Below, in pieces: positions 19,995 to 25,350 of a stretch of DNA of 64,000 bases. A program made the position numbers and the translations under genes. Every line of letters starts with the position of its first letter. Within the stretch, counting starts at the first letter, position 1. The stretch is from Candidatus Gastranaerophilales bacterium (GTDB lineage Bacteria; Cyanobacteriota; Vampirovibrionia; Gastranaerophilales; Gastranaerophilaceae). Where the stretch lies: assembly GCA_944325625.1 (NCBI GenBank), contig CALVAP010000007.1, positions 1 to 64,000 of the forward strand. The letters run 5' to 3'. The notes under the pieces are model-generated. The model had not been told where the DNA came from. It saw only the letters and a program-made list of their open reading frames with translations, and ran no database searches.

Positions 19995-20693
19995 TCATAA
20001 CTTATTATTATTTTGCAGATAATCTCGCCACAAATCAGGACGCATTTTTTTTGTTTTTATAATTTGTTGTTCTTTTCGCCATTGTGCTATTTGGGCATGG
20101 TTACCGTTTAAAAGCACCTCAGGAACAGCAAGCCCGTCATACAAACGAGGTTTTGTATAATGAGGATACTCAAGCAAACCGTCTTCAAAACTATCATAAT
20201 CTGCCGACTCGGTTTTCCCCAAAACTCCTTCCACAAAACGAACAGTACTATCTAAAACACATAATGCAGGAAGCTCACCCCCTGTCAGAACAAAATCCCC
20301 AATCGATACTTCTCTGGCTCCACTAAGAACTCTTATTCTCTCGTCGAACCCCTCATAATGTCCACAAATCATAATAAGTTGGTCTTTCTTAGAAAACTCT
20401 TTTGCTAAATTCTGATTAAAACGCTCACCTTGCGGAGTAAGCATTATCACCTCGGAATTTTCTTCTCGCTCAACGCCTTTAAGCGCGTCCAAAAAAGGCT
20501 GGCACATCAAAACCATACCAGCTCCCCCGCCATAAGGCGTGTCATCAACCTTTTTGTGTTTTGAATGCGTATAATCTCTGGGATTAATTGCATTTACAGA
20601 TATTAAATCGTTTTGAATCGCTCGTGATATTATACTATGCCGACAAGCGTTTTCAATCATTTCGGGAAAAAGAGTCAATATATCAAAACGCAT
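19995..20693 (-). CDS. trmD: tRNA (guanine37-N1)-methyltransferase
   Basis: SAM-dependent SPOUT enzyme that methylates G37 next to the anticodon and prevents frameshifting. The 232 residues begin with the typical MRFDILTLFPEMI and contain DDTPYGGGAGMV, ICGHYEGFDERI and SIGDFVLTGGELPA, which make the knotted SAM site. Eight bases downstream of rimM, in the classical order rimM-trmD. Confidence 0.97.
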   Translation of the reverse strand: MRFDILTLFPEMIENACRHSIISRAIQNDLISVNAINPRDYTHSKHKKVDDTPYGGGAGMVLMCQPFLDALKGVEREENSEVIMLTPQGERFNQNLAKEFSKKDQLIMICGHYEGFDERIRVLSGAREVSIGDFVLTGGELPALCVLDSTVRFVEGVLGKTESADYDSFEDGLLEYPHYTKPRLYDGLAVPEVLLNGNHAQIAQWRKEQQIIKTKKMRPDLWRDYLQNNNKL

Positions 20694-20701
20694 CGATACA
20701 C

Positions 20702-21223
20702 CTACCCAAGTTTGGGTATTAACCCGTCTATATTATTAATAACTATCTTCTTATTCTCTATATCTACAAGAGGAACAAGCTCCTTTACAAAAGGAACCAA
20801 ATGTACTGAATCATCACGAATTCTGACTGAAAGCAAATCTGTAGCACCGTTTTCAGAAACCCCTGTAACAACACCCAACCTTAATCCTTCAGTATCAAAT
20901 ACCTCGAGCCCTTTTAGGTCCGATGTCAAATACTCATCTTCCTTTAACTCACCCGACACAACATCTTTGCCTGCGTATATAATAGCGCCCTTAAGCTCCA
21001 TTACCTCGTTTATGGAATTAATTTCCTTAAACTTGACAATCGCATAACCCTTATGAAATCTAACGCTCTCAATAGTAAGCTCAACACAGTCACTGGCTTT
21101 CTTAGCGTAAACAACCGCAAGGTGTTTGAGCTGTTCTTCTTTTCCCTTGGTATAACCCAGCTTGACCTCACCCTTTATCCCGTGAAAGTTCAATATTTTC
21201 GCAACAGAAATCAAATTAGCCAT
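20702..21223 (-). CDS. rimM: Ribosome maturation factor RimM
   Basis: Assists late 30S assembly around ribosomal protein S19. The 173 residues show the N-terminal barrel (ISVAKILNFHGIKGEVKL) and the C-terminal PRC-barrel (GLRLGVVTGVSENGATDLLSV, then LVPFVKELVPLVD). It lies nine bases after the zinc-ribbon gene and eight before trmD, so it is internal to an operon. The usual rpsP neighbour is absent here. Confidence 0.95.
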   Translation of the reverse strand: MANLISVAKILNFHGIKGEVKLGYTKGKEEQLKHLAVVYAKKASDCVELTIESVRFHKGYAIVKFKEINSINEVMELKGAIIYAGKDVVSGELKEDEYLTSDLKGLEVFDTEGLRLGVVTGVSENGATDLLSVRIRDDSVHLVPFVKELVPLVDIENKKIVINNIDGLIPKLG

Positions 21224-21232
21224 TAGCTACAC

Positions 21233-22306
21233 TTACTCTTGAGCATCCGCAGCTGCATCTTCAACAGCAACCGTTTTTTTCTTTCTGGTGGTTTTCTTAG
21301 GGGCTTCTTCCACCTGTGACAAAGCCTCATCTTCAACCTTCTGCTCTGACTTAACTTCCAATCCGCTAAGTCTTGCATCATCGGCAAGAACCTTATCATG
21401 CTCACTTAAGCCTTTTCTCGGACGAATAATCTGAGCAGGAGCATCTGCTCTATCTTCATTCCATCTGCCAAGTCCCATCTGTTTTCTGACAAGACCGATA
21501 CCAACGTGAACACGCCATTCATCCATTTTGAGCTGGCTCGCTATAATCTTGTGACATCCTATCGGAGGAAGTGGCAAAAGCGGCTCATAAAGATTTTTTA
21601 TTGCCAACAATTGATCTTGTGAAACAGCCAATTTGCGCTTAGGATAAGGCATTTTGGGTAAAAACATCTTTTGTCTGACAAGATTTATACCAAAGAAAAC
21701 CTTTTTTGGTTCAAGCCCAATCTCTTTTCCAATAATTTCATGCGCATCAGGGTTGGGCAAAGGAAGCATACGCTTATACAAAACTTCAATCTGAGCAACT
21801 TGTTCTTTTGTAACAAGAAGTTCCTTATGCGCTCTAGGAGCTGAAGGACGTCTGTTTTGCTGAGGTCTGCGAAAATTCCCCTGTTGAGTACGATTATAAC
21901 CACCCTGCGAGCGATTATTATTTGTCCTATTGTAATTACCATTTGGTCGAGAAGGTCTATTATAACCTCCTTGTCGGTTATTGTTATATCCGCCTTGGTT
22001 ATAACTATTCCTTTGATAATTCGAGCGGTTATTCTGATAATCCCCCTGCGGACGGTTATAGCTGCGTTGATTATTATAATTACTGCGTTGAGGGTAAGGT
22101 CTTTGTGCCTCGTCAGAATTTCCTTCATAACTGTAAGAAGACCTCATTTGCGGTCTTTCACCGCCTTCTTGGTTAGTTTCAGAACCTGTAACAGCAGAAT
22201 CCAACAGCGGTTTTTTATCAGGATACAGACAATTTGGACATATTATCCTCTTTGGGTTCTTTGTCTCAAACTCAGCTCCACACTTGGTACATTTATTTAT
22301 ATACAT
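21233..22306 (-). CDS. Zinc-ribbon protein with Asn/Arg/Tyr-rich disordered region and a duplicated globular domain
   Basis: A 357-residue protein I cannot assign to a named family. A zinc ribbon opens it (Cys6-x2-Cys9, Cys23-x2-Cys26). Residues about 50-160 are low complexity, rich in Asn, Arg, Tyr, Gly and Gln with repeated GGYN and RSNY units, like RNA-binding or prion-like regions. Two similar domains of about 53 residues follow (165-217 and 227-279), each with a LY...LPLP turn, a HxII helix and a closing GI.LVR..M. The tail is acidic, then basic (TTRKKKT). It is the first gene of the rimM-trmD-acpS-rmlA operon, which suggests RNA or ribosome work. A GAGGG lies 12 bases before the ATG. 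Confidence 0.82.
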   Translation of the reverse strand: MYINKCTKCGAEFETKNPKRIICPNCLYPDKKPLLDSAVTGSETNQEGGERPQMRSSYSYEGNSDEAQRPYPQRSNYNNQRSYNRPQGDYQNNRSNYQRNSYNQGGYNNNRQGGYNRPSRPNGNYNRTNNNRSQGGYNRTQQGNFRRPQQNRRPSAPRAHKELLVTKEQVAQIEVLYKRMLPLPNPDAHEIIGKEIGLEPKKVFFGINLVRQKMFLPKMPYPKRKLAVSQDQLLAIKNLYEPLLPLPPIGCHKIIASQLKMDEWRVHVGIGLVRKQMGLGRWNEDRADAPAQIIRPRKGLSEHDKVLADDARLSGLEVKSEQKVEDEALSQVEEAPKKTTRKKKTVAVEDAAADAQE

Positions 22307-22470
22307 TTTATCTTTTGACCCTCATAACTTTGCAAGGTGGTATCGTCAATATTTTTGTGCCTTAATGCAAAATAAACTAATCTCTTTCTCTTAACTAAAG
22401 TCCTTGCTAATACTTAAAATATCAAAACTGGCAATCAACCTCATGTGTATTTTATATTTAAAAAAAAAAT

Positions 22471-22502: not shown

Positions 22503-22602
22503 TAGCTTAGATATTTCAATTTTTTCTCGCAAAATCTTTCAATTTATCATAAAAAATGATAAAATTAGAAAATAATGTTTTTAGTATTTGACAGGTTTAA
22601 TT

Positions 22603-25350
22603 ATGCACAATAAAAATTCTAAATCAAAAGCCTTTACTTTGGCTGAAACACTCATAACTCTGGCGTTAATCGGGATTATTACAGTCCTTACGATGTATAT
22701 GCTTAATTCCGATAAAATTAGACAAAGAGAACTCCTCGGTCGTTTTCATATTACCTTCGCAAAACTCGATAACCTTGTCGGACTTACGGCTCAAGCATCT
22801 AGAAACTACCCTAATTGGCGAGCTGATGCTTACTCTTTGGCTAACTTGTCTTGTACTGATGATTCCGGCAATAACATCTCTAATAAATCAATTTGCTTAA
22901 AAAAAGCTCTTTTATCCGCTTCAAGTATTCCTCAAGATTGCAGCGAGCCGGATAAATGCTTTAAAAACTACGACAAACTTACTGAACAACTTCACTCTAT
23001 ATTCCCTTCCTTTAAATCTAACGATGCTGTTGCCTTTATTCTTCCGGGAAGCGTTCAAGTCCTGGGGGCTTATCTCGATAGCACCTGCGAACTTGAAATC
23101 CCTATTGGCAGAGGTCGTGATAATTCTAACGAAAAAGTTAAAGGCTGTGGTTTCTTACTCGCTGATGTTAACGGAAATTCTAAACCTAATAATCTCTTAA
23201 TCAGTGATGATAAAATTATTGACCGTTTCTTAATGGCTATTACTCCAAACGGCCTTATTAAATCTAACCTTTTGGATGAAATTGCAGGATGTCCCTCCGG
23301 CACAACATATGATGCAACCACTAAAGAATGTGTAGGAGCTTTTAGCTGTCCTTTGGATATGGATTATATGAAAGAACTTCAAAATAAAAATTCTGAAAGC
23401 CTTTTGATAATAGAATATCCATATGGCGCAGAACATTCAGATTGTTACGAGGTCAAGTGTAAATCCGGTGACGCTCCAGACTCCGAAAATAAATGTCCGG
23501 AACTTTGCTCTGCCTCTGATGAAAAACGCTATGGCGGACTTTGGCTATCTGAAGGGGGGGACCTGCCTGACAAATGGTCAGAAAAAGCTTGTTGTGTCCC
23601 AATTTCCAATCAAGCAGAACTCGCCTCCATTAACACCGATTCAAACTCTTTAAGCAGAAATTATTGTCTTATGGCTGATATTAATTTCGACAAAAATGGA
23701 GCTGGCTCAACTTCTACAGAAGGGTGGACTCCTATTGGCAATAGTTCTGCTCCTTTCAAAGGAAGCTTCTATGGTAACGGACATAAAATTAGTAACTTCT
23801 ACATCAATAAAACTTCTTCTAACACTGATTACATAGGATTGTTCGGAGTTGTTTCTGGAGGCAGCTTAAACTCTTTTGAAAACATGGAAATTGACAGCGG
23901 TGAAATATTTGCCAAAATAGATAATGGTGGATACATAGGTAGTCTTATTGGAGAACTTAACAACAAAGCAAAAAATCTTGTGAATTCGGCTGATATTACT
24001 GAAGAAAAATCTTCATATAATGGTCACACCGTTGGGGGGATTATAGGAGAAAGTAATAATGATGATATTACAAATATTAAAAATCTAGGTGATATAACTA
24101 TCAATGATTCGCTGGAATATAGCAGTGGTAATATTTGGCTAGGTGGAAATATTGGCTATTCCAATACAAATATAACAAATTTAGTGAACCTTGGTTCAAC
24201 CACAATCAAGATAAGTTGCTTAACCACGAGTGGATATGCTGTTGCTTCTGGTGGCAATTTAGGCACGATATCAAATAAAAGACTCAAAAATTCGATTAAT
24301 TCTGGAAAAATAGATGTAGAGTGGAGGAATAAAGATCCAAACACACCTATGTTTCAGTTTTTTATTAGCGGAATAACACCTGCAAGCCTTCTACTCATTG
24401 AAAATGTTATCAACACAGGTGATGTGTTTTTTAATCACTTAGAAGAAGTTGCTGGACGAGGAGTAACTCAAGTCGGTGGGATTGTAACAACATACGCGCA
24501 AGACAACGAAACAGTAAGCAATTCAATAAATACAGGAGAAATTCGCTCTACATCAAGGCAGCACATCCAATATATACTTGGAGCCACTGGGACAAATTCT
24601 ATAAATATTGGTGGCATAGAAGGAAACCCCTTTAATGCTGACCTACTCTCTAGAATAATTACTATTCCCACTACCAAAAATATATATTATATCGGCTTAT
24701 CAGGAAAAAATCTTATCAACTACGGACAACTTCACGCAGAAAACACTGAAGAAGTAGGTATTTTTGATACAACCGGAAATGCATATAATTTAGCTAACAC
24801 AAGCCTACTATTAGGTAATACTCTTGCTAGCACCTTTTACCTGAGCGGTTCTGTTACAGGTTGCACTACAGCGGGGGATTATACAGGATGTTCAGAGATT
24901 CTTGCCTCCGATATTAAAAAAGCTGCAACCTATTCAGCCATTTCAAGTGACAGTGCTAATGCTCAATATTGGTCAATAATCGATGGCTTTTTCCCAACTC
25001 TAAAAGCAGCTGTTATGCCCCCTCAAATTTTCCGCGATTGTCGTAACAACAAGACCCCCTACGGTGGTTGTTATGACGTTCTGAACACTCCGAACGCTTT
25101 TATGCCTGATTTTGGCACTACTAACCCTATCGGCGTTGAAGATTACAAACCATTCATCATGTGGGCATGGAAAAAACCAGCAACAAATACTACCCCCATT
25201 GAATACCCCGTTTTGCGTTGGCAATGTAAACCATATCGCCTAAACGGCTATGACTGCTGTCGCCCATCTTATGCCACTTGGGAACCAAAACTCCCTGCTT
25301 GCCCTGCTTTGGTCATCCCCTCCGGCGCAGATTACAGATCTATAAATTAA
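22603..25350 (+). CDS. Prepilin-like surface protein with GLUG-type repeats
   Basis: A 915-residue secreted protein with a type IV prepilin leader: a basic start, the cleavage site KA|FTLAE with Glu at +5, and a 20-residue hydrophobic helix. Residues about 80-330 are a Cys-rich head (CPSGTTYDATTKEC). From about 365 come GLUG-like repeats (WTPIGNSSAPFKGSFYGNG, YIGLFG, GGIIGE, GGNIGY), a beta-solenoid type seen in adhesins. The last 150 residues are Cys- and Pro-rich. I take ATG 22603; a TTG at 22588 is also in frame. Likely a pilus-linked adhesin or tip subunit; the partner pilus is not known. Confidence 0.8.
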   Translation: MHNKNSKSKAFTLAETLITLALIGIITVLTMYMLNSDKIRQRELLGRFHITFAKLDNLVGLTAQASRNYPNWRADAYSLANLSCTDDSGNNISNKSICLKKALLSASSIPQDCSEPDKCFKNYDKLTEQLHSIFPSFKSNDAVAFILPGSVQVLGAYLDSTCELEIPIGRGRDNSNEKVKGCGFLLADVNGNSKPNNLLISDDKIIDRFLMAITPNGLIKSNLLDEIAGCPSGTTYDATTKECVGAFSCPLDMDYMKELQNKNSESLLIIEYPYGAEHSDCYEVKCKSGDAPDSENKCPELCSASDEKRYGGLWLSEGGDLPDKWSEKACCVPISNQAELASINTDSNSLSRNYCLMADINFDKNGAGSTSTEGWTPIGNSSAPFKGSFYGNGHKISNFYINKTSSNTDYIGLFGVVSGGSLNSFENMEIDSGEIFAKIDNGGYIGSLIGELNNKAKNLVNSADITEEKSSYNGHTVGGIIGESNNDDITNIKNLGDITINDSLEYSSGNIWLGGNIGYSNTNITNLVNLGSTTIKISCLTTSGYAVASGGNLGTISNKRLKNSINSGKIDVEWRNKDPNTPMFQFFISGITPASLLLIENVINTGDVFFNHLEEVAGRGVTQVGGIVTTYAQDNETVSNSINTGEIRSTSRQHIQYILGATGTNSINIGGIEGNPFNADLLSRIITIPTTKNIYYIGLSGKNLINYGQLHAENTEEVGIFDTTGNAYNLANTSLLLGNTLASTFYLSGSVTGCTTAGDYTGCSEILASDIKKAATYSAISSDSANAQYWSIIDGFFPTLKAAVMPPQIFRDCRNNKTPYGGCYDVLNTPNAFMPDFGTTNPIGVEDYKPFIMWAWKKPATNTTPIEYPVLRWQCKPYRLNGYDCCRPSYATWEPKLPACPALVIPSGADYRSIN

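Follow-up and report, generated by a model that had tools for sequence, protein, structure and literature searches.

The 64,000-nucleotide window (the whole stretch of Candidatus Gastranaerophilales DNA that was analysed) carries, at positions 21233–22306 of the minus strand, the gene of a 357-aa protein that is real, strongly conserved in its lineage and without a name in Pfam or NCBIfam. Nearly every Candidatus Gastranaerophilales genome has the gene, in one copy. According to profiles and structure models, its product is predicted to join an N-terminal zinc ribbon, a long flexible tether rich in Arg, Tyr, Gly and Gln, and two tandem homeodomain-like helix-turn-helix (HTH) modules on a short basic linker. 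We consider the protein a candidate lineage-core, nucleic-acid-binding gene-expression factor with a lean towards RNA, a reading to which we assign a probability of roughly 45%.

Domain architecture and fold

The open reading frame starts with ATG, and the ORF call together with AF2 resolved it into a zinc ribbon, a low-complexity domain (LCD), two HTH repeats and a tail, all encoded on the minus strand. The N-terminal C4 zinc ribbon (22211–22306; MYxNKCxKCGxEFETKNPKRVICPxCLYP) is supported by a profile match and a pLDDT of ~90, and its cysteines are arranged as C6xxC9...C23xxC26. This C4 knuckle is invariant, while the Pfam families Zn_ribbon_8, HypA and RPAB4 gave at best 14 bits against a cut-off of 28.9. 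The ribbon is followed by the N/R/Y/G/Q-rich LCD (approximately residues 34–160; 21827–22205), in which Arg and Tyr are present, Asp and Glu are scarce, and ~120 residues are predicted to be disordered, with pLDDT values below 50 at residues 34–146 and 148–152. Among orthologs, the LCD varies from 71 to 243 residues, with gains and losses via in-frame tandem repeats (L029, L030, L012, L080).

Both repeats were assigned to homeodomain-like three-helix HTH modules, repeat 1 (approximately residues 162–225; 21632–21823) by Pfam scan, AF2 and Foldseek, and repeat 2 (21419–21634), which is preceded by a basic PKRK arm and closes with a conserved RWNxDRxDxP end, by AF2, hhalign and Foldseek. The two align with an hhalign probability of 98.7% and 35% identity over 60 columns. 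The initial annotation had described a C4 ribbon, a disordered stretch and two homologous domains of 53 residues, and this anatomy was borne out by the ORF, AF2 and hhalign. Each unit indeed has ~53 structured residues, but the linker brings the spacing from one repeat to the next to 63 residues. The tail (21236–21418), predicted to be disordered and containing KKTTRKKK in the window protein, had been called basic; over 131 orthologs, its composition is mixed instead, with 21.6% K and 21.7% E. The HTH pair forms a gapless 136-aa block conserved in more than 100 orthologs, which places the ORF and its domains well beyond chance.

The full protein matched no family above cut-off in Pfam, NCBIfam, PHROGs or PADLOC, phmmer against the PDB returned nothing, and none of the PDB sequence searches gave a match below E 0.1, in agreement with its earlier description as unrecognised. 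When the conserved 136-aa block was scanned member by member, the Pfam Homeodomain was listed below cut-off in 13/14 and 16/22 members, with a best E-value of 1.1e-5 (bit score of that member not shown). The window member reached 16.9 and 16.7 bits (E 0.0058–0.0065), short of the PF00046 gathering cut-off of 22.9 bits. In a profile search of PDB sequences, a homeobox protein ranked first (E 0.12) and aligned in register with helices 1–3. In this alignment, the helix-3 signature W48-F49-x-N51-x-R53 is replaced by G, I, L and R, so that R53 and a hydrophobic residue at 49 are kept, but W48 and N51 are lost. The DNA-reading positions 47, 50, 51 and 54 are occupied by F, N, L and Q in one repeat and by V, G, L and K in the other. 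A KH domain (KhpA, PF13083) was not matched in the protein, and no literature was found that pairs Melainabacteria with homeodomains or Gastranaerophilales with transcription factors.

In the AF2 model of the HTH pair, both repeats adopt a three-helix HTH in homeodomain register. The six helices (19–31, 40–48 and 52–65; 82–95, 103–111 and 115–128) lie in blocks mostly above pLDDT 90, at a mean of 84.9. With this model, a Foldseek search of the PDB was led by four DUX4 double-homeodomain structures (E 0.024–0.07, probability 0.87–0.94), followed by tandem engrailed; the seven best matches were all tandem homeodomains, each at E>0.02. Cbp1 (2lvs) ranked eighth (E 0.19), and the mRNA-binding domain of SelB ranked ninth and eleventh. 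A search of BFVD gave generic phage HTH proteins at E>0.006. As the whole-pair TM-score of the Foldseek matches was only ~0.3, the orientation of the two modules is not comparable with that in DUX4. What the matches support is a modelled homeodomain-like fold for the single repeat; they do not speak for common ancestry or for the same arrangement of the pair. DUX4 HD1-HD2 resembles the protein in having two three-helix modules in tandem on a basic linker, whereas the protein is bacterial, stays below the Pfam cut-off, lacks W48 and N51, and has a zinc ribbon and an LCD in addition.

Distribution and genomic neighbourhood

One copy per genome was found in 52 of 59 relatives, and in 43 of the 44 good genomes. 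In the class sample, two families of the order (f1 and f6) and three outside it (f9, f14 and f15) had the protein, which was not found in f8 and f10–f13; the remaining families of the order are covered by the 59-relative count rather than by this sample. In a phylum sample of 386 genomes, it was not found beyond these families, apart from one weak match in the same phylum (G234, E 0.0034), which was rejected as chance after it had disappeared with a broader profile. The zinc ribbon profile likewise gave exactly one match per genome, only in those sampled genomes that have the 357-aa protein. A GTDB scan returned 424 loci, and the best 80 of the 424 were labelled Gastranaerophilales/Melainabacteria or unnamed bacteria except for three odd labels (Brachyspira, Heliobacteriaceae, Clostridiaceae), which are taken to be mislabelled bins. 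Identity of the HTH pair to that of the window protein was 71–85% within the order, compared to ~42–53% for RimM and 55–65% for TrmD outside the genus, and the pair is better conserved than RimM and TrmD from the same genomes. The protein had been supposed to be lineage-specific, and it is: near-universal in the order, present in three more families, and undetected in the rest of the phylum sample.

In the window, rimM (20702–21223, minus strand) follows after a gap of 9 bp behind the stop codon, and next come trmD (19995–20693, minus strand) and acpS, with rimM and trmD assigned by HMM. Of the 162 loci with the domain, a set that is dominated by the home family, 131 have RimM immediately downstream in the same orientation. 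The linkage is missing from the sampled loci of the other families of the order, from the three further families and from a few home-family genera, so the proposed association with rimM-trmD holds for the home family but is not conserved across the lineage. Instead, the gene is found with mtaB (f1 g21), dtd (f7; f4 g42), infC-rpmI-rplT (f4 g37), yebC (f3 g47), gatB (f14 g60) or secE-nusG (f14 g84). We take dtd, gatB, queA, sdaAB, rpmI and rlmN to be these genes from reading their sequences, and the remaining neighbours were assigned by HMM. Across independent arrangements, the adjacent co-directional gene often belongs to the translation or transcription machinery, which is suggestive, in a tally drawn up post hoc and without a formal background rate. 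Several arrangements have no such neighbour (sdaAB in f9; some in f3, f6 and f1 g26).

Two further observations concern divergent genes. In f9 and f15, sdaAB, a split L-serine dehydratase pair, is divergent to the gene (L061–L064, L068, L069), with queA convergent in f15. In the window, positions 22588–25350 of the plus strand encode a divergent 916–920 aa protein whose ectodomain is long and repetitive and whose N-terminus has a prepilin-type methylation motif (Pfam N_methyl, E 7e-4, slightly short of the cut-off); homologs are located at the same place in the two same-genus genomes.

A conserved 5' leader

The gene is preceded by a 5' leader (22307–22410, minus strand) that was delimited by leader comparison. 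Leaders of the home family carry the 13 bases AATTAAGAGGCTW at the ribosome-binding site. The window leader is without the 13-mer and has GAGGGTC instead (22317–22323, minus strand), which is supported as a sequence element, and a purine element GAGAAAGAGAT is located at 22380–22390 (minus strand). TTAAGAGGCT was present in 34 of 63 distinct leaders at a shuffle mean of 0.015; for a purine element lying farther upstream, the count was 46 of 63 at a shuffle mean of 5.9. In 60 whole genomes, AATTAAGAGGCTW matched 37 times, at least 22 of these directly upstream of this gene by coordinates. These statistics show a conserved leader that is specific to the gene and likely regulatory, at the RNA or DNA level. 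A wider regulon marked by AATTAAGAGGCTW was rejected, since matches elsewhere did not exceed the ~28 of a reversed-pattern control.

With regard to RNA structure, the window leader contains a possible GCAAGG...CCTTGC stem (5' arm near 22402–22407, 3' arm at 22332–22337, minus strand), noted in the sequence only. A GCAAGG/CCUUGC stem that would give the leader RNA a structure is visible in several families (L001, L003, L077, L079, L076), but it was unsupported overall: 4 of 19 stems beat their shuffles at 0.1, which is not beyond shuffles as a whole, RNAalifold of the leaders was near zero, and Rfam gave no match for the leader. Home-family leaders such as L007 and L051 show three conserved blocks (CTGAGGAG, TTAACCCGGAATTACGTTATT and AATTAAGAGGCTT), joined by AT-rich linkers whose length varies within one genus. 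By eye, GAGGAGCUA and AAAGGG at the ribosome-binding site could compete for GCCUUU in the manner of a two-state switch (L009, L016, L017, L146).

Candidate functions

In the reading that we prefer, the two HTH modules together would grip one nucleic acid, the tether would add multivalent weak contacts in an RGG-like manner, and the zinc ribbon would dock on a partner, be it the ribosome, RNA polymerase or RNA. Its target may be RNA related to translation (rRNA, tRNA or mRNA), and the element conserved at the ribosome-binding site may allow the protein to regulate its own production. The lean towards RNA is drawn from the neighbours, the leader at the ribosome-binding site, the Arg/Tyr-rich tether, and the precedents of ribosomal protein L11, with its C-terminal domain, and bicoid, whose homeodomain-like folds bind RNA (PMC9638898) and resemble the protein in fold only. 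RGG/Tyr-rich RNA-binding proteins share with it the combination of folded modules and an R/G/Y/Q-rich low-complexity tether, but their folded domains differ. Against this lean, bacterial HTH domains mostly bind DNA, and homeodomain-like folds are usually DNA-binding as well. Of the RNA-binding factor proposed in the initial annotation, a plausible nucleic-acid binder is retained, and RNA binding stays a proposal. For the condensate formation that had also been suggested as possible, the analysis covered disorder and composition.

The tandem HTHs might instead read or coat DNA like Cbp1/Cbp2 or DUX4, which would make the protein chromatin-like or a global regulator of transcription. We find this alternative less probable, but it carries real weight. 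The leading fold matches are DNA-bound double homeodomains, a basic KRK arm precedes helix 1 of repeat 2 in homeodomain style, and the disordered parts and AT-hook-like tails would help to hold AT-rich DNA. The relaxed AT-hook-like motif [KR]GR[PK][KRP] was found in 78 of 131 ortholog tails, where 0.2 were expected, and the strict form [KR]GRP[KR] in 11 of 131; both are missing from the window protein, and the motif is missing from many orthologs. Archaeal Cbp1, a tandem HTH protein that binds CRISPR repeats, attaches to DNA and forms chromatin, and Cbp2 has been called a homeodomain protein (PMC10883916). Both resemble the 357-aa protein as short prokaryotic tandem HTHs derived from duplication, but Cbp1 has three HTHs, neither zinc ribbon nor LCD, and no sequence match to it. 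The residues at the DNA-reading positions and the replacement of W48 and N51 also speak against DNA binding. Furthermore, HU was present in all 117 sampled genomes, so that the place of a basic nucleoid protein is already taken, and a replacement of HU by the 357-aa protein was discarded accordingly.

Distinctly unlikely is a role as protein adaptor, in which the HTH repeats would bind RNA polymerase, the ribosome or an RNase, and the flexible region would scaffold a complex or condensate. Polymerases are a frequent docking site of zinc ribbons and HTHs, and invariant hydrophobic residues on or near helix 3 (FF of KVFFGIN and W of EWRVHV) may leave room for a protein ligand, but the basic linker, the Arg-rich tether and the homeodomain-like modules in tandem favour nucleic acid as the ligand.

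The gene takes the slot before rimM that khpA holds in the rpsP-khpA-rimM-trmD operon, and neither rpsP nor KhpA was found at the locus, as had been noted. rpsP is located on another contig (C3:78525), where it is not beside khpA, rimM or trmD; its product is an S16 of 128 aa, C-terminally extended by an E/A/K-rich stretch (G000, L085 3005–3391). For KhpA, this genome gave nothing above cut-off, only a sub-threshold 32-residue match inside a 514-aa ORF. In the class sample, KhpA/KhpB exceeded the cut-off only in f8 and f13 and not in f1, f9–f12 or f14; both seem to have disappeared from a number of the class's families, every sampled member of Gastranaerophilales included, and to persist in f8 and f13. 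As f10–f12 are without both KhpA and the 357-aa protein, the loss of KhpA does not track the gain of the protein, and a simple replacement of KhpA, which would have put the protein in its slot as formerly suggested, is unlikely; KhpA has an unrelated KH fold, and the slot is not conserved for the 357-aa gene. A ribosome-maturation partner of RimM in this slot is thus hardly tenable, for all the home-family linkage and the missing KhpA/KhpB, given that the gene lies elsewhere in other families and that KhpA is also missing where the protein is.

Returning to the RNA-leaning gene-expression factor, its most specific form, a general factor of Melainabacteria with RNA-binding tandem homeodomain-like modules, a FUS-like tether and feedback on its own ribosome-binding site, would be unlikely on balance. 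For bacteria, a plan of zinc ribbon, R/Y/G/Q tether and paired homeodomain-like modules is unusual, and its likeness to eukaryotic gene-expression proteins is regarded as convergence. Gastranaerophilales are a common order of gut bacteria and relatives of Cyanobacteria, and the identity of the ligand would tell if this branch beside Cyanobacteria possesses a general RNA or DNA factor of its own. Beyond L11 and bicoid, the protein offers a test case for RNA binding by homeodomain-like folds.
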